Assembly (NCBI GenBank): GCA_001871075.1
Contig: MNUP01000122.1
Location: forward strand, 1 to 13,220
Length of the DNA stretch: 13,220 nucleotides
Source: Candidatus Desantisbacteria bacterium CG1_02_49_89
Lineage (GTDB): Bacteria > Desantisbacteria > UBA1551
Direction of reading: 5' to 3'
Below the pieces are notes generated by a model that saw nothing but the letters and a program-made list of their open reading frames with translations, was not told the DNA's origin and ran no database searches. This document shows, one piece after another, positions 1 to 9,982 of this stretch. Position 1 is the stretch's first letter. Each line of letters begins with the position of its first letter. Both the position numbers and the translations under genes were made by a program.

Positions 1-195
1 ACTCACAGGCTTGTGCGAAAGTCCACAGTTTATAAATTCACCAGACATTTTAAGGATTTATTGAAAAATTATAGAATGAATTTGATTTCTATTCAGCGGC
101 TGCGCTCTTCTTTTATGGCTTGGATTGGTCATATTAAACATGCCAATTACAAGAATCTCTGCAAAACGGTTTTAAATAAATTTAGGACTAAATAA
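1..195 (+). CDS. Reverse transcriptase, C-terminal end (cut by the window's left edge)
   Basis: The frame is open from base 1 to the TAA at 193-195, giving the last 64 residues of a longer protein. The tail reads like the C-terminal thumb/X region of bacterial retron-type or DGR-type (diversity-generating retroelement) reverse transcriptases: a basic RLVRKSTVYKFTRHFK stretch (residues 3-18), then SSFMAWIGHIKHAN (residues 36-49), which resembles the S-x-x-SWxGHxKHA block that I recall closing this family. The catalytic YxDD motif would lie outside the window. A GTG at 13 is an internal codon, not the start. The DNA is clearly AT-richer than the sugar genes that follow, hinting at a different origin. 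Only 58 bp separate it from gnd. It could be a DGR, a group II-like or an orphan RT; the fragment cannot decide. No template or variable repeat is visible in this window. Confidence 0.6.
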   Translation, partial: THRLVRKSTVYKFTRHFKDLLKNYRMNLISIQRLRSSFMAWIGHIKHANYKNLCKTVLNKFRTK

Positions 196-4406: not shown

Positions 4407-4432
4407 AGGATTAATGGTTCCTGGGATTAATG
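4385..4432 (+). repeat. Octamer tandem repeat spanning the stop codon of the FGGY kinase
   Basis: Units of period 8 in register: GATTAAAG, GATTAATA, GATTAAAG, GATTAATG, one diverged unit (GTTCCTGG), GATTAATG. The array covers the last codons and the TAA at 4404-4406. Confidence 0.8.
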
Positions 4433-4434
4433 TA

Positions 4435-4469
4435 GTTTACAAAGTTTATATAGTTTATAAGTTTACAAA
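4435..4469 (+). repeat. Nonamer tandem repeat (GTTTACAAA type)
   Basis: GTTTACAAA, GTTTATATA, an 8-nt GTTTATAA, and GTTTACAAA. Same family as 1701-1727 and 8344-8379. It follows the octamer array with a 2-nt gap. Confidence 0.75.
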
Positions 4470-4475
4470 GTCTAA

Positions 4476-4493
4476 AATTCGTGAGAATTCGTG
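4476..4493 (+). repeat. 18-nt ATTCGTG repeat, inverted copy of 9798-9815
   Basis: AATTCGTGAGAATTCGTG is the exact reverse complement of 9798-9815. Its final GTG is shared with the first bases of the 40-nt hairpin element that follows. A further AATTCGTGG at 4565-4573 closes the far side of the element, so the element is flanked by this motif. Confidence 0.7.
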
Positions 4494-4530
4494 CCGTAGG
4501 GTCATCGACCCCGTTCTGACCCGTAGGCCC
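4491..4530 (+). repeat. 40-nt covarying hairpin element, copy 1
   Basis: Begins GTGCCGTAG and ends TAGGCCC. A perfect 6-bp stem, GGGTCA (4499-4504) with TGACCC (4517-4522), encloses a 12-nt loop. Related copies lie at 5962-6001, 6004-6042 and 9738-9777, all on the opposite strand. By hand alignment this copy shares 30 of 40 positions with 5962-6001 and 29 of 40 with 9738-9777. Confidence 0.75.
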
Positions 4531-4532
4531 CA

Positions 4533-4563
4533 GCGTTATGGTTTCGTAGAAACCCGCAGGGAC
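4533..4563 (+). repeat. 31-nt module with GTA-loop hairpin, copy 1
   Basis: Starts GCGTT, forms GGTTTC-GTA-GAAACC (6 bp, loop GTA) and ends GCAGGGAC. It lies 2 nt after the 40-nt element. The copy at 9705-9735 (- strand) keeps GCGTT, the GTA loop and GCAGGG but has entirely different stem bases. Confidence 0.65.
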
Positions 4564-4586
4564 TAATTCGTGGTTAAAGAGGTTGT

Positions 4587-5906
4587 ATGGATGTTTCAAA
4601 GGAAATGAAGATTACGGGTGTGATTGACGAAAATGAAAAACTGACCGTAGCCACCACGGGCGCGAAATACGTTTTCCTGAAAACCGGGGAAAAAGGCAGG
4701 ATACTTTGTTACCAGCTTATTAACATCGTTAACGGCGAACGCCTCAACGCGGTGATCATTTTTCCGTTCTCTTTCCTAAGCCTTACGCTGGAAAAGAAAG
4801 GCGCGGATTACTGTGTCCTGCACCAGGGTTTCAGCGGCGAGTTCTTCGTTAGGTTCCAGGTGAACGGCGATTCGGTGCTGGATCTTTATACGCCCCTGGA
4901 ACTGAACATAGGATTCGATATCGAGCTGTCCCCGGCGTACTCCGCCGAGAAAGACGGCAACGCGATATTCATAGACGATAAGGGCGGTTTTGGCATATAT
5001 CCCTGCCGCGGGTATGCGAGATCGGAAAAGAAGGTCCTGGATAACGGTAATATAAGGATGGAATACGCGTCCGGCAGGCCGTGCAGGTTCCTCGTATCGA
5101 TTTTCCCGCCCAGGAAATTCCAGGAGGAACGCTATTATAAGGAAAACATAGCGCATTTCGGCGTGAACCCGCCGTGGACCTTTTATCCTTACCCTTCGGA
5201 TGAAATGATTGAAGGAGTGTCCGCTCACGCTAACCTGTTAGTTCTTCACGCGCAAATATGGCAGGGGAAACTGCAGAGGAACGGCATTGAGCCAAAGAGC
5301 ACCCCCGAGCTTCTTTCCAACGCTTCTTTTTCCAGTTTTGACCACGTGCCCGTTTCGGAAAAGGAACTTGCGCGGGTCGTGAGGAAGTGCCGCTCGCTCA
5401 AAATGAAAGTTATACCGTACCTGAGCCCGACGTTCTCAACAGCTTTCGGTGAAGACTTCCTCGCGCAGGTCAGGAAAATGCTGGACAAATACGGCATGGA
5501 CGGGGTTTATCTGGACGGGTTCTCGTTCGACCTGCTGTACGGCTACCGGCTCATCAGGGACATAAGGCGCATCCTAGGGGACAGGATACTTTACCTTCAT
5601 GCCACCTGCGAGCCGTTCTGGGACGCGCGCGTTTGGTGCCCGTTCATTTACGCGTATGCGGATTACTCTCTGAGGGCGGAGATGCAGGGCGATTTTGACG
5701 ACAACTACCTGCGGTATGGCATATCGGGGTACAACACCAGCAATTCCATCCACTATACCTGCACCTGCTACTACAAGCCGGATTTCGTAAGGAAAATACT
5801 GGGCAAAGCCCTGGAATACAGGGTTAAGTTTTATCTTGCACTGCCGCAGGGCGAGATCGAGGAAATACTCAAATCCGAATATTTCCCCAAGCTGAAACAA
5901 AAATAA
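4587..5906 (+). CDS. Putative glycosidase-like TIM-barrel protein, family not recognised
   Basis: I do not recognise the family of this 439-residue protein. Residues 1 to about 190 look beta-rich, like the sandwich domains that precede glycosidase barrels. From about 215 the pattern is (beta/alpha)-barrel-like: VLHAQIWQG (219-227), KVIPYLSP (274-281), then DGVYLDGFSFD (305-315), a strand ending in acidic residues as in retaining glycosidases of the GH31/36/123 kind, and ILYLHATCEPFWD (334-346). Asp310, Asp315 and Glu342 are candidate active-site residues, by position only. Cysteines cluster near the C-terminus (341, 351, 392, 394). There is no signal peptide or membrane segment, so it is probably cytoplasmic. 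AAAGAGG 5 nt before the ATG supports the start. The neighbours are sugar enzymes, so a glycan or glycoside substrate is a reasonable guess, no more. Confidence 0.6.
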   Translation: MDVSKEMKITGVIDENEKLTVATTGAKYVFLKTGEKGRILCYQLINIVNGERLNAVIIFPFSFLSLTLEKKGADYCVLHQGFSGEFFVRFQVNGDSVLDLYTPLELNIGFDIELSPAYSAEKDGNAIFIDDKGGFGIYPCRGYARSEKKVLDNGNIRMEYASGRPCRFLVSIFPPRKFQEERYYKENIAHFGVNPPWTFYPYPSDEMIEGVSAHANLLVLHAQIWQGKLQRNGIEPKSTPELLSNASFSSFDHVPVSEKELARVVRKCRSLKMKVIPYLSPTFSTAFGEDFLAQVRKMLDKYGMDGVYLDGFSFDLLYGYRLIRDIRRILGDRILYLHATCEPFWDARVWCPFIYAYADYSLRAEMQGDFDDNYLRYGISGYNTSNSIHYTCTCYYKPDFVRKILGKALEYRVKFYLALPQGEIEEILKSEYFPKLKQK

Positions 5907-5931
5907 ACCCCCTGCAGTCCCGATATAGTAT

Positions 5932-5963
5932 CCCCCCGAGCCCCTTCGGGGCTAAAAGGGGGG
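5932..5963. terminator. Very stable two-part hairpin downstream of the barrel protein
   Basis: CCCCCC (5932-5937) pairs with GGGGGG (5958-5963). Inside it AGCCCC (5939-5944) pairs with GGGGCT (5948-5953) around a TTC loop, with an AAAA bulge. It starts 25 nt after the stop at 5906. It has no T-run, so it is not a standard intrinsic terminator; it could block exonucleases or be a repeat. Its last two bases overlap the adjoining 40-nt element. Confidence 0.5.
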
Positions 5964-6001
5964 ACCTACGAACCAGAACGTGGCTGATGGCTCTTCGGCA
6001 C
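5962..6001 (-). repeat. 40-nt covarying hairpin element, copy 2
   Basis: Read on the - strand it begins GTGCCGAAG and ends GTAGGTCC. The stem is GAGCCA with TGGTTC (6 bp including one G-U) around a 12-nt loop, at exactly the positions used in copies 1 and 3. It lies head to tail with copy 3, with two bases between them. Confidence 0.75.
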
Positions 6002-6003
6002 AG

Positions 6004-6042
6004 GGACCTTCGCCCGCCAATAATCGTGGCGGGCTACGGCAC
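6004..6042 (-). repeat. 39-nt covarying hairpin element, copy 3
   Basis: Read on the - strand it begins GTGCCGTAG and ends GAAGGTCC. The centre is replaced by a perfect 7-bp stem, CCCGCCA with TGGCGGG, around a 7-nt loop. The ends are conserved while the stem is wholly different, as expected if pairing and not sequence is kept. Confidence 0.75.
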
Positions 6043-6057
6043 AGAGAACACAGAGAA
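6040..6057 (+). repeat. Nonamer duplication CACAGAGAA
   Basis: Two exact units of CACAGAGAA in tandem. The first CAC is shared with the end of the hairpin element. Confidence 0.65.
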
Positions 6058-6065
6058 ATGCATTT

Positions 6066-6096
6066 AACCACGGATTAACACAGATTTTCACAGATT
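6066..6096 (+). repeat. 31-nt decamer-type repeat (CACGGATTAA), copy 1
   Basis: Built of three units of period 10: CACGGATTAA, CACAGATTTT, CACAGATT, preceded by AAC. It matches 7398-7428 at 30 of 31 positions. Both copies stand upstream of a C-box/T-box pair. Confidence 0.8.
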
Positions 6097-6104
6097 GATT
6101 TTTT

Positions 6105-6132
6105 ACTTGACACTTGATACTTGACTCTTGAC
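6105..6132 (+). repeat. Heptamer tandem repeat ACTTGAC
   Basis: Four units of period 7: ACTTGAC, ACTTGAT, ACTTGAC, TCTTGAC. It happens to contain TTGACA twice; see the rejected promoter. Confidence 0.75.
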
Positions 6133-6139
6133 ACTGAAA

Positions 6140-6173
6140 AATCACCGTAATCTGTTTTGAAATCACTGTAATC
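6140..6173 (+). promoter_or_regulatory. C-box/T-box pair before the Gfo/Idh/MocA gene
   Basis: AATCACCGTAATC (6140-6152) and AATCACTGTAATC (6161-6173), 21 nt apart start to start, joined by TGTTTTGA. The second box ends 2 nt before the AAGGAGG Shine-Dalgarno at 6176-6182. Confidence 0.6.
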
Positions 6174-6187
6174 ACAAGGAGGTAATA

Positions 6188-7330
6188 GTGGAAAAGGTTC
6201 GTATTGGTGTTATCGGGTGCGGGGGGATGGGGCAGGCGCATATCAAAAGCATTAAGGAGCTTCCGGAAGCGGAGCTTGCGGCTGTATGCGACGTGGATGC
6301 GAAAGTGCTGGACGGTTTAACGAAGGCAAACAACGTAAAGGGCTTCGCTGATTCAAAAGAGCTGACCGGCAGCGGGCTGGTGGATGCGGTTGTTATTGCC
6401 ACCCCGCATTATTTCCACCCGACGATAGCCGTAGACGCGTTCGAGAAAGGCCTGCACGTTCTTTCAGAGAAACCTATATCAGTAACAGTAAGCGCCGCGG
6501 ACATCATGCTCAGGGCGGCAAAAAAGAGCGGAAAGGTTTTCGCGGTTATGTACCAGCAAAGAACCCTTCCCGCGATACGGCTTGCCAGGCAGATAATCAG
6601 GAGCGGGAAGCTGGGCAAGATCATCCGGACCATGATGGTGGAGCCGAACTACCGCTGCCAGGCGTATTATAACAGCTCGGGATGGAGGGCGACCTGGACC
6701 GGTGAGGGCGGAGGAGTGCTTATAAACCAGGCGCCGCACGGCATTGACCTTTTTATGCTCCTGGGCGGGATGCCTGTCAGGGTGAACGCGAGGGTAAGGA
6801 CGAAGATCCACGACATAGAGGTAGAAGACGAAGCTTCGGCGATGCTCGAATATGAGAACGGGACCTGGGGTTACTATTATACTTCAACATGCGAGATGCC
6901 GGCTTCCACGAGGATGGAGATCTCGGGTGACAGGGGGAAGCTGGTTTACGTTGACGGTGAGCTCAAGCTGTATATGCTGAATCCCCCGGTTTCAGACCAT
7001 AATAAAGAAACCAAAGAAATGTGGTCTTTCCCGCAGGTGCAGGAAGAGCAGCTTGAGCTTCCCAAGGCGGAAACGGGGCACAAGGAGATCCTCAGGAATT
7101 TCTGCGCCGCTATTCTTCGTAAAGAGGAGCTGATATCCCCGGGTGAAGACGGGATGAAGGCAGTGGAATTCATTAACGCGGTCTGCCTTTCCGGAAGGAT
7201 GGGAAAGCCGGTTGACATTCCGGTTGACCGCAGACAGTATGACATGCTCCTGGACAAGCTGAGAAGGAACTCAAAGGAAAAGAAAGAAGCGGTGAAAACC
7301 GAACGCGTCACCGATCCCAGATTCAAATAA
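6188..7330 (+). CDS. Gfo/Idh/MocA-family NAD(P)-dependent oxidoreductase
   Basis: Predicted to oxidise or reduce a hydroxyl of a sugar, inositol or sugar acid with NAD(P)(H) in the cytoplasm. At 380 residues it is normal for the family. The Rossmann domain opens RIGVIGCGGMGQAH (5-18), with CDVD at 34-37 after strand 2. The family signature SEKPIS lies at 93-98 with Lys95 as the expected catalytic lysine. GEGGGVLINQAPHGIDL (172-188) starts the C-terminal alpha/beta domain and carries His184 and Asp187, the usual active-site pair. The start is GTG, chosen because AAGGAGG lies 5 nt upstream and the Rossmann motif follows at once. The next gene is a sugar isomerase/epimerase-type barrel; these two families are often partners in inositol, keto-sugar and glycoside oxidation pathways, so they probably act in sequence. 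Exact substrate unknown. Confidence 0.92.
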   Translation: MEKVRIGVIGCGGMGQAHIKSIKELPEAELAAVCDVDAKVLDGLTKANNVKGFADSKELTGSGLVDAVVIATPHYFHPTIAVDAFEKGLHVLSEKPISVTVSAADIMLRAAKKSGKVFAVMYQQRTLPAIRLARQIIRSGKLGKIIRTMMVEPNYRCQAYYNSSGWRATWTGEGGGVLINQAPHGIDLFMLLGGMPVRVNARVRTKIHDIEVEDEASAMLEYENGTWGYYYTSTCEMPASTRMEISGDRGKLVYVDGELKLYMLNPPVSDHNKETKEMWSFPQVQEEQLELPKAETGHKEILRNFCAAILRKEELISPGEDGMKAVEFINAVCLSGRMGKPVDIPVDRRQYDMLLDKLRRNSKEKKEAVKTERVTDPRFK

Positions 7331-7397
7331 TACCACGGAGGCAATTAGAAACGGAGGAGTTCTTGGTTTAAAACCCATAAAACATAACTGCCTTTGT

Positions 7398-7428
7398 AAC
7401 CACGGATTAACACGGATTTTCACAGATT
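7398..7428 (+). repeat. 31-nt decamer-type repeat (CACGGATTAA), copy 2
   Basis: Units CACGGATTAA, CACGGATTTT, CACAGATT after AAC; differs from 6066-6096 at a single base. The spacer on either side (7331-7397 and 7429-7473) holds nothing I can identify. Confidence 0.8.
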
Positions 7429-7473
7429 CATACTCTGTGAACTACTTTGGGCTGTTTTCTATAAACTTAAAAT

Positions 7474-7507
7474 AATCACCGTAATCTCTTTTGAAATCAC
7501 TGTAATC
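7474..7507 (+). promoter_or_regulatory. C-box/T-box pair before the epimerase-type gene
   Basis: AATCACCGTAATC (7474-7486) and AATCACTGTAATC (7495-7507), 21 nt apart start to start, joined by TCTTTTGA. The T-box directly abuts AGGAGG (7508-7513), 4 nt before the ATG at 7518. Confidence 0.6.
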
Positions 7508-7517
7508 AGGAGGAACT

Positions 7518-8351
7518 ATGTTTCTAAGCGGGATCGCGGACGAGGCGGCCGACAGCATTGACGGGCAGATAGCCGCGCATAAAGAGCTGGGCTGGGACCA
7601 TATAGAGATACGGAATATTGGCAGGAAAAACCTTACGGACGTTGATGACGCGGTTTTCGACGCCGTGGAGAAGAAACTCGGTGAGGCGAAAATGAAGGTA
7701 GTGTGCTTTGCGAGCCAGATCGCCAACTGGTCCCGCAAGATCACCGGCGATTTCAGCGTTGACGTTGAGGAGCTGAAGCGCGCGATCCCCAGGATGAAGC
7801 GGCTGGGCACCAGGTATATAAGGATAATGAGTTATCCGAACGATAACTGCACGGACGCATTCTGGAGGAAAGAGGTTATAAAGAGAATAAAGGAGCTGGT
7901 GAGGATCGCTGAAGACGGCGGCGTGGTGCTCGCGCATGAAAACTGTTCCGGCTGGGGCGGGCTGAACGCGGAAGAAGCTCTTGACCTTACCGAATCCGTG
8001 AATTCCCCGGCTTTCAAATGGATCCTTGACACAGGTAATAAGCCGCACAGGAGCGGAACTATTTACGACATTTATAAAAAAGTCCGCGGGTACGTTGAGC
8101 ACGTCCACATCAAGGATTACAAGGGAGAAAAGGGCGACCAGTTCGTTTTTCCCGGAGAAGGCGAGGGAGAGGTGAAGAAGATACTGAAAGAACTTATAGC
8201 TTCCGGTTACAACGGCGGTTTTTCGATCGAGCCGCACATGGCGGCTGTTGCGCATACAGGTAAGGAAGCAGAGGACAAGATGGCCGCGTATAAGCTTTAT
8301 ATTGAATACGGCAGGCGCGCGGAGAAGCTGCTGAAAGAAATCAGTTTATAA
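7518..8351 (+). CDS. Sugar phosphate isomerase/epimerase-type TIM barrel
   Basis: Belongs to the xylose isomerase-like / AP endonuclease 2 fold, which uses a divalent metal to isomerise or epimerise sugars or dehydrate inosose. The 277 residues fit the single-barrel members. Expected metal ligands are visible: Glu141 in LAHENCSG (138-145), Asp171 in WILDTGNKPH (168-177), His195 or His197 in VEHVHIKD (193-200), and Glu238 in FSIEPH (235-240). No extra domain, signal peptide or membrane segment is seen. AGGAGG 4 nt before the ATG fixes the start. Pairing with the preceding Gfo/Idh/MocA oxidoreductase suggests a keto-sugar intermediate passed between them; the reaction cannot be named from sequence. 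The last two codons before the stop, and the stop itself, lie in the first unit of a nonamer repeat. Confidence 0.88.
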   Translation: MFLSGIADEAADSIDGQIAAHKELGWDHIEIRNIGRKNLTDVDDAVFDAVEKKLGEAKMKVVCFASQIANWSRKITGDFSVDVEELKRAIPRMKRLGTRYIRIMSYPNDNCTDAFWRKEVIKRIKELVRIAEDGGVVLAHENCSGWGGLNAEEALDLTESVNSPAFKWILDTGNKPHRSGTIYDIYKKVRGYVEHVHIKDYKGEKGDQFVFPGEGEGEVKKILKELIASGYNGGFSIEPHMAAVAHTGKEAEDKMAAYKLYIEYGRRAEKLLKEISL

Positions 8352-8379
8352 AGTTTACACAGTTTACAGAGTTTACAAA
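8344..8379 (+). repeat. Nonamer tandem repeat spanning the stop codon of the epimerase-type gene
   Basis: Four units of period 9: GTTTATAAA, GTTTACACA, GTTTACAGA, GTTTACAAA. The first includes the TAA at 8349-8351. Same family as 1701-1727 and 4435-4469. Confidence 0.8.
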
Positions 8380-8386
8380 GGGTAGG

Positions 8387-8432
8387 CGCAACCTTCAGGT
8401 TGCGTTTGTAGCGGTGCGACGTTTCGTCGCAC
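8387..8432. repeat. Two adjacent GTAG-led hairpins
   Basis: Hairpin 1 pairs CGCAACC (8387-8393) with GGTTGCG (8398-8404) around TTCA. Hairpin 2 pairs GTGCGACG (8414-8421) with CGTCGCAC (8425-8432) around TTT. Each is introduced by GTAG (8382-8385 and 8408-8411). The hairpin after GTAG at 12787 looks like a third member. The stems differ while the lead and layout are kept, as in REP-like elements. Confidence 0.65.
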
Positions 8433-8444
8433 AGTTATAACTGT
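8431..8444. promoter_or_regulatory. Perfect 14-bp palindrome upstream of the beta-helix gene
   Basis: ACAGTTATAACTGT is its own reverse complement, about 66 bp before the ATG at 8511. Size and symmetry suit a dimeric repressor site. It occurs once in the window, and its left end touches the hairpin ending at 8432. Confidence 0.35.
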
Positions 8445-8472
8445 TGTATTTATCCGGAAAATTTTTTAATTT

Positions 8473-8491
8473 CTCTCCCTTGATGGGAGAG
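8473..8491 (+). promoter_or_regulatory. Leader hairpin with an SD-like 3' arm
   Basis: CTCTCCC (8473-8479) pairs with GGGAGAG (8485-8491) around TTGAT. The 3' arm includes the GAGG (8489-8492) that would serve a GTG start at 8499, so folding would hide it. A second GAGG at 8501-8504, outside the stem, fits the ATG at 8511. Confidence 0.45.
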
Positions 8492-8510
8492 GAAGAAGGT
8501 GAGGGTGAAG

Positions 8511-9704
8511 ATGCCTGATATAAAATCATATGGGATTAAGGGTGATGGAAAAACGGATGATACTTCCGCGATCCAGAAAATGCTGGACGAAACAGGGAAA
8601 AAAGGCGGGGTGGTGCGGCTTCCCGCGGGTATGTATCTTGTGGGCGGCAGTTTGAAAATACCTGCTGGAGTGGCATTGACCGGAGCCGCGCAGGCGCCGC
8701 TGTATATCGAGCCGCTCATCGGGACCGTGATACTGGCAACAGGCGGCAGGGGAAAAGAAGACGGTCCTGCGGTTTTTGAAATGGGCGATTCAGCAACTGT
8801 CCAGGGCCTGACGGTATTTTATCCGGAGCAGAAAGTAGACGACATAGTTCCGTACCCCTGGACATTCCACATGTTCGGCGGTGATAATACGGTTGAAAAC
8901 GTTACCCTGATAAACAGCTACAACGGTATTATTGTAGGGCCGGAGTCAAACGTGCGCCACAGGATAAGAAGCGTGTGCGGCTGCGTGCTGCGCCGCGGCC
9001 TTTTTGTTGATACCTGTTCGGACATCGGCAGGACAGAGAACGTGCAGTGGCACTGTCACTGGTGGTCTTCTAAAAAGGTAGGCGGAGACTGGAATTCTGT
9101 CTATGAGTATATGTGGAAGAACTGCGAGGGATTCATTTTCGCGCGCACTGACTGGGAATACGTCACCAACACCTTCATTTTTCCCGTAAATATCGGGTAC
9201 CACTTCATAGAAACGAAGAGCGGCGCGATGAACGGCCAGTTATGCGGTATAGGCGCGGATGCGGCGCAGAAGTGCATTGTCGTGGACCAGATCCAGTATA
9301 TGGGACTTTTGATCACAAATGGCCAATTTGTTGCTTTTTACGGGGACGACCCGATCGAGATAGTCATAAATTCCACTTGTACCGGTTCTGTGCGGCTTGT
9401 GAACTGCGCTTTCTGGGGCCCGGCGAACCAGTGCGTTGTTTCCCACAGCAAGAGCTTCGTCTCGCTTAATGACTGCTTTTTTTCAAGCGGGAAAGAGAAA
9501 CATCCGGGCAGAGCCCTTGTTGAAGCTGACGGGGGCAAGCTGCAGATACGGGGATGCAGTTTCGCAAGCCCTGAGCCCTGCATAGATCTTAAAAAAGGCG
9601 TTCAGCATGCGATCATCACGGAAAACAACGGCGTGAATGGTGTCAGCATCCGCAGCGACATCGGCGGGAACGCTATCATAGCAAATAACGAAAATAGCCA
9701 CTGA
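8511..9704 (+). CDS. Right-handed beta-helix protein, pectate lyase/polygalacturonase-like fold
   Basis: Residues 3-22 (counted from the ATG) carry the opening signature of pectate lyase 3 / polygalacturonase-type beta-helices, ending in GDGKTDDTSAI, as in many glycan lyases, hydrolases and phage tailspikes. The body has the short Asn- and Val-rich strands of stacked helix coils, for example NTVENVTLINSYNGIIVG and a later run ending in NDCFFSS. I do not see the GH28 catalytic set (NTD, DD, HG, RIK), so activity is uncertain; a lyase, a non-GH28 hydrolase or a binding protein are options. No signal peptide is present, which is unusual for this fold. I chose the ATG at 8511 (397 residues); the frame also opens at GTG 8499 (401 residues), but those extra codons come from the repeat-like leader. 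The rhamnosidase-like gene downstream suggests a rhamnose-containing pectin-like substrate. Confidence 0.75.
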   Translation: MPDIKSYGIKGDGKTDDTSAIQKMLDETGKKGGVVRLPAGMYLVGGSLKIPAGVALTGAAQAPLYIEPLIGTVILATGGRGKEDGPAVFEMGDSATVQGLTVFYPEQKVDDIVPYPWTFHMFGGDNTVENVTLINSYNGIIVGPESNVRHRIRSVCGCVLRRGLFVDTCSDIGRTENVQWHCHWWSSKKVGGDWNSVYEYMWKNCEGFIFARTDWEYVTNTFIFPVNIGYHFIETKSGAMNGQLCGIGADAAQKCIVVDQIQYMGLLITNGQFVAFYGDDPIEIVINSTCTGSVRLVNCAFWGPANQCVVSHSKSFVSLNDCFFSSGKEKHPGRALVEADGGKLQIRGCSFASPEPCIDLKKGVQHAIITENNGVNGVSIRSDIGGNAIIANNENSH

Positions 9705-9735
9705 GTTCCCCTGCAGCTGCTACGCAGCTCAACGC
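9705..9735 (-). repeat. 31-nt module with GTA-loop hairpin, copy 2
   Basis: Read on the - strand: GCGTTG, then AGCTGC-GTA-GCAGCT (6 bp), then GCAGGGGAAC. It starts at the first base after the beta-helix stop codon and adjoins the 40-nt element at 9738-9777 with a 2-nt gap, the same order and gap as at 4491-4563. Confidence 0.65.
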
Positions 9736-9737
9736 AG

Positions 9738-9777
9738 GGACCTTTGGGCCAGAGCCAAGCTAATGACCCTACGGCAC
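9738..9777 (-). repeat. 40-nt covarying hairpin element, copy 4
   Basis: Read on the - strand it begins GTGCCGTAGGGTCAT, identical to copy 1 for 15 bases, and ends AAAGGTCC. The stem is GGGTCA with TGGCCC (6 bp, one G-U) around 12 nt. The flanks at 9773-9790 and 9798-9815 are the inverted matches of 1736-1753 and 4476-4493. Confidence 0.75.
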
Positions 9778-9797
9778 TGAATTCACTGAGTTTTAAC

Positions 9798-9912
9798 CAC
9801 GAATTCTCACGAATTGTTTGCTTCGCAACATTCTTTGTGGGCTACGTCGATAAACGACGAATTGCACGAATTTTTAACCTTTTTAACTTTTAACCCTTTT
9901 AACCTCTTTAAC
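9798..9912 (+). repeat. Composite spacer: ATTCGTG repeat, small stem and TTTTAACC array
   Basis: 9798-9815 is the inverted copy of 4476-4493. A 5-bp stem, CGTCG/CGACG, occupies 9845-9859. From 9871 to 9912 a loose array of TTTTAACC-like units (period 8-9) runs up to the box pair. No open reading frame with gene-like character is seen here. Confidence 0.6.
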
Positions 9913-9929
9913 TAACGTGGACTATTAAT

Positions 9930-9965
9930 AATCACCGTAATCATCAGTTAATAATCACTGTAATC
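9930..9965 (+). promoter_or_regulatory. C-box/T-box pair before the rhamnosidase-like gene
   Basis: AATCACCGTAATC (9930-9942) and AATCACTGTAATC (9953-9965), 23 nt apart start to start. The T-box ends 5 nt before GGGGAGG (9971-9977), the Shine-Dalgarno for the GTG at 9983. Confidence 0.6.
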
Positions 9966-9982
9966 ACAAAGGGGAGGAATGC

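Follow-up and report, generated by a model that had tools for sequence, protein, structure and literature searches.

The window analysed here is a 13,220-nucleotide stretch of DNA, contig C124 of the 2.48 Mb, 150-contig draft genome of Candidatus Desantisbacteria bacterium CG1_02_49_89. Its genes are those of sugar metabolism (6PGD, 2-hydroxyacid dehydrogenase, FGGY kinase, Gfo/Idh/MocA, TIM barrel, pectate-lyase-like and alpha-L-rhamnosidase), and most of them are preceded by intergenic arrays of imperfect 8-10-nt word repeats (AGTTTACAA, ACGGATTAAC, AATCACCGTAATC and others) at 1690-1840, 4430-4490, 6063-6180, 7380-7515, 8338-8380 and 9790-9970. The subject of this report is a short folded repeat that occurs four times in the window. 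An earlier note, made from the window alone, had described four copies of a 39-40-nt hairpin element at 4491-4530 (+), 5962-6001 (-), 6004-6042 (-) and 9738-9777 (-); coordinates, ends, stems and loop sizes were all confirmed. The copies are far beyond chance, as the same pattern yields dozens of true copies genome-wide. Sequence analyses covered approximately 362 kb of segments around matches and were accompanied by genome-wide searches with covariance models (R1 and R2).

Comparison of genome-wide copies with their flanks showed that the AGGYCC end of each 40-nt copy is followed by CTGYGTTR, a second hairpin and RCAGGG. The 40-nt copies are thus the left half only of a unit about twice as long, the complete element being 67-77 nt with two hairpins and the plan YYGNAG-[hairpin 1]-CGNAGRYCC, then CCTGCGTTR-[hairpin 2]-GCAGGGR. 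The leading GTG, which had been taken as the element's end, does not belong to it: the triplet at this place differs among copies (GTG, CGT, CGA, TTT, CTT, CTA, CAG and others). Because this triplet is variable, we place the start at YYG and assign GTG to the target.

Element 1 is complete (4494-4562, + strand, 69 nt) and ends in GCAGGGA; R1 and R2 match 4491-4561. The arms of its hairpin 1 lie at 4499-4504 and 4517-4522, with closing CC/GG at 4494-4495 and 4526-4527, and hairpin 2 spans 4529-4561. The left, target-side flank (4430-4493) is an array of 9-10-nt word repeats with the terminal sequence GAGAATTCGTG, and the array resumes in the right flank (4563-4580) with CTAATTCGTGGTTAAAGA. When the flanks are joined, AATTCGTGAGAATTCGTG running directly into CTAATTCGTGGTTAAAGA, they differ at 5 of 36 positions from an array at C135:29826 that is uninterrupted. 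Element 2, also complete, occupies 9708-9774 of the minus strand (67 nt; R1/R2 match 9709-9777) and has a paralogous empty site at C30:12432. The word array of its right flank (9690-9707, AACTCAGTGGC) resembles an uninterrupted array at 1738-1762 of the window. The two remaining copies, both on the minus strand, had been described as head to tail; both are present, but they are nested and not a tandem pair. Element Y (5932-5998; R1/R2 match 5933-6001) is complete and lies inside element X. The 5' part of X, a CCCGCC-type hairpin 1 followed by the CCCT of hairpin 2, is at 6002-6039, and its 3' remainder, the 3' arm of hairpin 2 plus GCAGGGGG, is at 5908-5931. Comparison with an intact relative (L043, C58:3774-3849) showed that hairpin 2 of X lacks its 5' arm. 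The hairpin CCCGCCA-N5-9-TGGCGGG, seen at 6009-6035, is an exchangeable cassette found in both hairpin slots of the element; it apparently also occurs free-standing (62 matches in the fetched segments, both strands counted).

Divergent copies fold into the same two-hairpin structure, and RNA folding z-scores of four copies were -3.1 to -5.3. Hairpin 1 consists of the closing CC/GG, a 3x3 internal loop with GNA on both sides and an upper stem of 6-7 bp. In hairpin 2 a CCCTGC/GCAGGG stem is followed by the GTTR bulge, on one side only, and by an upper stem of 6 bp; the arms of this hairpin vary more than those of hairpin 1, yet almost always pair. In a structure-blind MAFFT alignment of 30 copies, 95.9% of pair cells were standard pairs and double-change cells numbered 75, compared with 18.9 after shuffling; sliding this alignment by one column abolished the signal. 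With 111 copies aligned to the model, which biases the alignment towards the structure as the MAFFT alignment does not, 18 of 21 pairs were doubly changed, 96.0% of cells were paired and there were 392 double-change cells against 88.7 shuffled; the shuffle controls ignore the relatedness of copies. The closing helix covaries too (CC/GG, TC/GA, CT/AG, TT/AA), and at the base of hairpin 2 a 5' CTGC is matched by 3' GCAG, while 5' CTGT is usually matched by 3' ACAG. The loops are conserved: GNA stands on both sides of the hairpin-1 internal loop in 96-98 of 100 copies, and the triloop of hairpin 2 is C(GNA)G in 36 of 47, counts that are not independent, as related copies inherited their loops from a common source. 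Between G-C pairs, GNA loops form extraordinarily stable DNA mini-hairpins (PMC4686876).

Model R1 gave 125 matches at E <= 1 in the organism's own genome, and R2, built from 111 copies, gave at least 104 copies at E <= 1e-4, a lower bound because just 150 candidates were scored. The earlier note had proposed a structured repeat family with strong compensatory change, a proposal that turned on an excess of such changes and on further copies; both were found. R1 had no match in 58 other genomes, including the sole other genome of the phylum examined (G001; same order, different family). A degenerate pattern scanned over approximately 85,000 GTDB species, with records closest to the own genome possibly excluded, gave a single match; it lay inside prfA of Thermosulfurimonas and was rejected as chance. 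No copies were found in viral contigs scanned with the same pattern.

The two halves of the element differ in distribution. In G001, R2 gave six weak matches, all to hairpin 2, and a model of hairpin 2 alone (R3) matched the own genome at 131 places and G001 at 9. Among 290 genomes only these two matched R3 at E <= 1e-4; R3 had been trained on sequences that included four from G001, whose matches are therefore by construction; the remaining matches are not. G001 thus carries a simpler relative of hairpin 2, which accordingly looks like the older module. The own genome also contains mini forms of approximately 47-53 nt, in which TCC-CTAAA-GGA precedes hairpin 2.

We analysed the ends of the element by a boundary scan, in which each copy was cut out at every pairing of a left with a right boundary, and the joined 11 + 11 nt were sought elsewhere in the fetched sequence. 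With the boundary YYG...CAGGGR the joined flanks recurred for 21 of 96 copies, and one base along the same diagonal for 25 of 96. Controls with shuffled partners gave 3-6, and positions off the diagonal and its immediate neighbours mostly 0-2. The mini forms showed the same boundary diagonal (7-8 of 16). Because removal of a copy rejoins its flanks into sequence present elsewhere, such places are paralogous empty sites and insertion was exact. The main target is the word arrays, which recur in other contigs. Loops of hairpin 1 of the element's own family are also targets: excision of the inner copy from between CATCTACCCAG and CTCTGGCTCG restores an intact relative, with nothing gained or lost. 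Insertions of this kind at C71:291, C71:5426, C19:1979 and C119:19240 carry no target duplication. Exact insertion and the lack of a target site duplication are as in single-strand elements of the IS200/IS605 type. Further host sites are CCGA/TCGG hairpin loops and the loops of hairpin 2.

Nesting reaches three levels at C135:24216-24430. The composites at C71:291 and C71:5426 have an identical inner copy and similar outer copies in different surroundings, which argues that the composite moved as a unit. In another recurrent composite the inner element stands in place of the 5' arm of the outer hairpin 2, the order being CCCTGYG, inner element, AT, 3' arm and CAGGG; it was seen at C124:5908-6039 (elements X and Y), C14:4991, C27:570, C71:16644, C135:24276 and C19:1871.

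Such hairpins might be terminators or RNA structures with a function in the host, which arose repeatedly and were kept for gene regulation. Most copies are indeed intergenic, approximately 100 nt from genes, and their hairpins are stable. However, copies occur in both orientations: among those with co-directional neighbours, 26 have the same orientation and 48 the opposite (p = 0.014), a modest excess of the latter. A cis-regulatory RNA of fixed orientation is thereby ruled out, and a weak strand skew of the copies is explained by gene direction. Recent copies moreover decay by one-sided changes, Rfam had no match on the window elements even at E up to 5, and copies sit inside each other's loops. 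One copy (L099, C100:7199-7267) lies within the reading frame of an SLFN_AlbA_2/HATPase_c_4 protein, where the frame stays open and a RecG-C-terminal-type domain is split into two matches. We therefore regard a host function as the origin of the family as very unlikely.

The course of divergence bears on how the paired changes arose. Copy pairs with fewer than 4 differences have, per pair, 0.48 one-sided and 0.04 double stem changes, and from approximately 8 differences up double changes dominate. Quasipalindrome correction, in which one arm of a hairpin serves as template for the other, would give paired changes without selection, and the nearly perfect stems with their rare G.T cells are in its favour. 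Yet near-identical pairs show one-sided and not double changes, so that double changes are not single events of high rate; exact insertion and nesting would also be left unexplained, and this origin seems most improbable to us. Most simply, individual copies would be free to decay, and new ones would come only from those that fold well. Selection then probably acts on folding at the time of mobilisation, the strand concerned probably being single-stranded DNA. The earlier note's inference of a folded single strand is borne out to the extent that the copies behave as expected of a mobile one.

Whether that strand is DNA or RNA can be approached from the stems and loops. The non-Watson-Crick stem cells comprise 18 G.T and 18 A.C, a parity unlike that expected of RNA kept folded in the cell. 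Together with the GNA loops this speaks for DNA as the folded strand but is no proof. The same family could have spread via an RNA intermediate, transcribed, folded and then reverse transcribed or spliced into its target. An intermediate of this kind, acting by reverse transcription or by splicing into the target, has been suggested for the small dispersed repeats of Nostoc, which the present element recalls in that it inserts precisely, nests and shows compensatory change. The genome holds a fragment of a reverse transcriptase, an RVT_1 match at the end of contig C119, although that is the single match in the whole genome. The translation of window positions 1-195 resembles a reverse transcriptase C-terminus, and the end of C119 has a comparable stretch beside the RVT_1 match. 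Against the RNA route, the stems show no G.T excess over A.C although G.U is a good RNA pair, and the common triloop is C(GNA)G and not one of the RNA favourites, UUCG or GNRA. We consider the RNA route rather unlikely.

As candidate movers, the own genome has ten Y1_Tnp genes and G001 three. The family could thus be a REP/REPIN family (repetitive extragenic palindromes) mobilised by one of the genome's REP-associated (RAYT) Y1 transposases. This would fit the number of such genes, an element that is small, intergenic and present in many copies, and the GNAG directly 5' of hairpin 1, which recalls the GTAG tag of REPs (PMC3733652, PMC8266576). The link to a REP-type Y1 transposase raised in the earlier note was not borne out at the eight of ten Y1 loci inspected, whose flanks hold other repeats: most RAYT-like genes are flanked by inverted GGGGAC-type repeats, two genes by CGTAACTCAAACC arrays, and an IS200-like gene has its own CCCCGCGG hairpins. 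Inverted repeats of the GGGGWSAS type beside such Y1 genes are known as terminal inverted repeats (PMC3733652). The GNA(G) tag, found in 96 of 100 copies, has T, A, G or C as its second letter, whereas the E. coli RAYT tolerates no change in GTAG (PMC8266576). In addition, the tag is not single-stranded here, since it lies within the closing CC/GG stem. Mobilisation by one of these RAYTs therefore appears improbable. Two tandem GTAG-tagged hairpins in the window (8382-8433; GTAGGCGCAACCTTCAGGTTGCG, GTAGCGGTGCGACGTTTCGTCGCAC), with few copies in the fetched sequence, are nearer to classical REPs than the two-hairpin element is. Elsewhere, two short Y1 transposase genes of 163 aa (L054 and L055, C23:324-5676) lie amid arrays of CGTAACTCAAACCTTCAGGTTTGA and CAGGGCTTTAGCCCTGAGTTACG hairpins, and these genes and hairpins are probably a REP-transposase pair of another kind.

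In behaviour, the element is closest to the small dispersed repeats (SDRs) known from Nostoc and its relatives (PMC4390886, PMC3116915) and reportedly described by Elhai et al. in 2008, and next to REPs and IS200/IS605 ends. SDRs are very small (21-27 nt), structured with compensatory changes, located in tandem word repeats and nested within themselves. The element shares structure, compensatory change, self-nesting and word-repeat location with them, but it is longer (67-77 nt, mini forms approximately 47-53 nt), has two hairpins, conserved GNA loops and a GTTR bulge, and occurs in a different phylum; the comparison is by description and not by sequence. SDR5 is known to insert exactly into HIP1 (PMC4390886). 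Like GTAG REPs and REPINs (PMC3733652, PMC8266576, PMC3116915, PMC6006769), the element is a short, intergenic, high-copy hairpin with strand-specific features and a GNAG tag 5' of the stem; unlike them, its tag is degenerate and enclosed by a closing stem, its second hairpin is obligatory, and it nests exactly in its own loops. With IS200/IS605 (PMC6006769) and their non-autonomous forms it has in common a hairpin at each end, no target duplication and recognition of structure rather than sequence, but it lacks a spacer or guide between end and hairpin foot, an internal gene and a single target tetranucleotide, and no clear orientation bias was found. Rickettsia palindromic elements (mentioned in PMC3733652) are likewise palindromic, and one copy of the present element lies in an open frame; compared by description, the almost wholly intergenic location and the two-hairpin plan set it apart. 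As it differs from SDRs in size, from REPs in not flanking the Y1 genes inspected and from IS200/IS605 in having no fixed target, we regard it as a new family of mobile structured repeats of very small size.

On balance, we think it probable that these copies make up a family of tiny non-coding mobile elements whose insertion is exact and duplicates no target sequence, and that they are mobilised in trans in the form of a folded single strand. The enzyme responsible would recognise features of the fold, namely the C(GNA)G and GNA/GNA loops together with the GTTR bulge, and not the letters of the stems; it would cut at YYG...CAGGGR and join the strand to its target, either an intergenic word-repeat array or a hairpin loop, the element's own included. 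If only copies that still folded moved on, lineages would show paired changes while idle copies decayed. That the strand would be DNA and the enzyme HUH-like in action is the weakest step of this proposal. More tentatively, and with considerable doubt, one may picture a gene-less transposon consisting of two hairpins with a single 3' base. An enzyme belonging to none of the known Y1/RAYT systems would move it as folded single-stranded DNA, with a preference for loops and repeat-word junctions, and nested, still mobile, multi-hairpin composites would result.

Several points weigh against movement as a folded DNA strand. Movement itself was not observed; the data come from a single genome, without strain polymorphism, an excision product or a circle. 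No copy of the element lies within approximately 1.5 kb of any of the eight Y1 genes inspected. The element has no spacer, and its target triplet is variable, where an IS200/IS605-type element would be expected to have a fixed left-end target tetranucleotide read by an internal guide. A replication-strand bias was sought and gave no clear signal (strand concordance within contigs, p = 0.2). Word arrays cannot separate a target duplication from the array itself, and the hairpin-loop insertions alone exclude one. GNA/GNA internal loops are possible in RNA too, which makes the argument for DNA indirect.

Elements shorter than 100 nt that move without a linked gene are poorly understood in all bacteria, including whether they travel as DNA or RNA and what moves them; the present one appears to rank among the smallest mobile elements known. 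Strong covariation by itself is, as seen here, no proof of a functional host RNA. With at least 104 copies in measurable decay, exact empty sites and nested composites, this genome holds a record of what the mover demands: fold, loops and bulge, not letters. The question thereby becomes a defined biochemical test, for which ten candidate Y1 enzymes are available.

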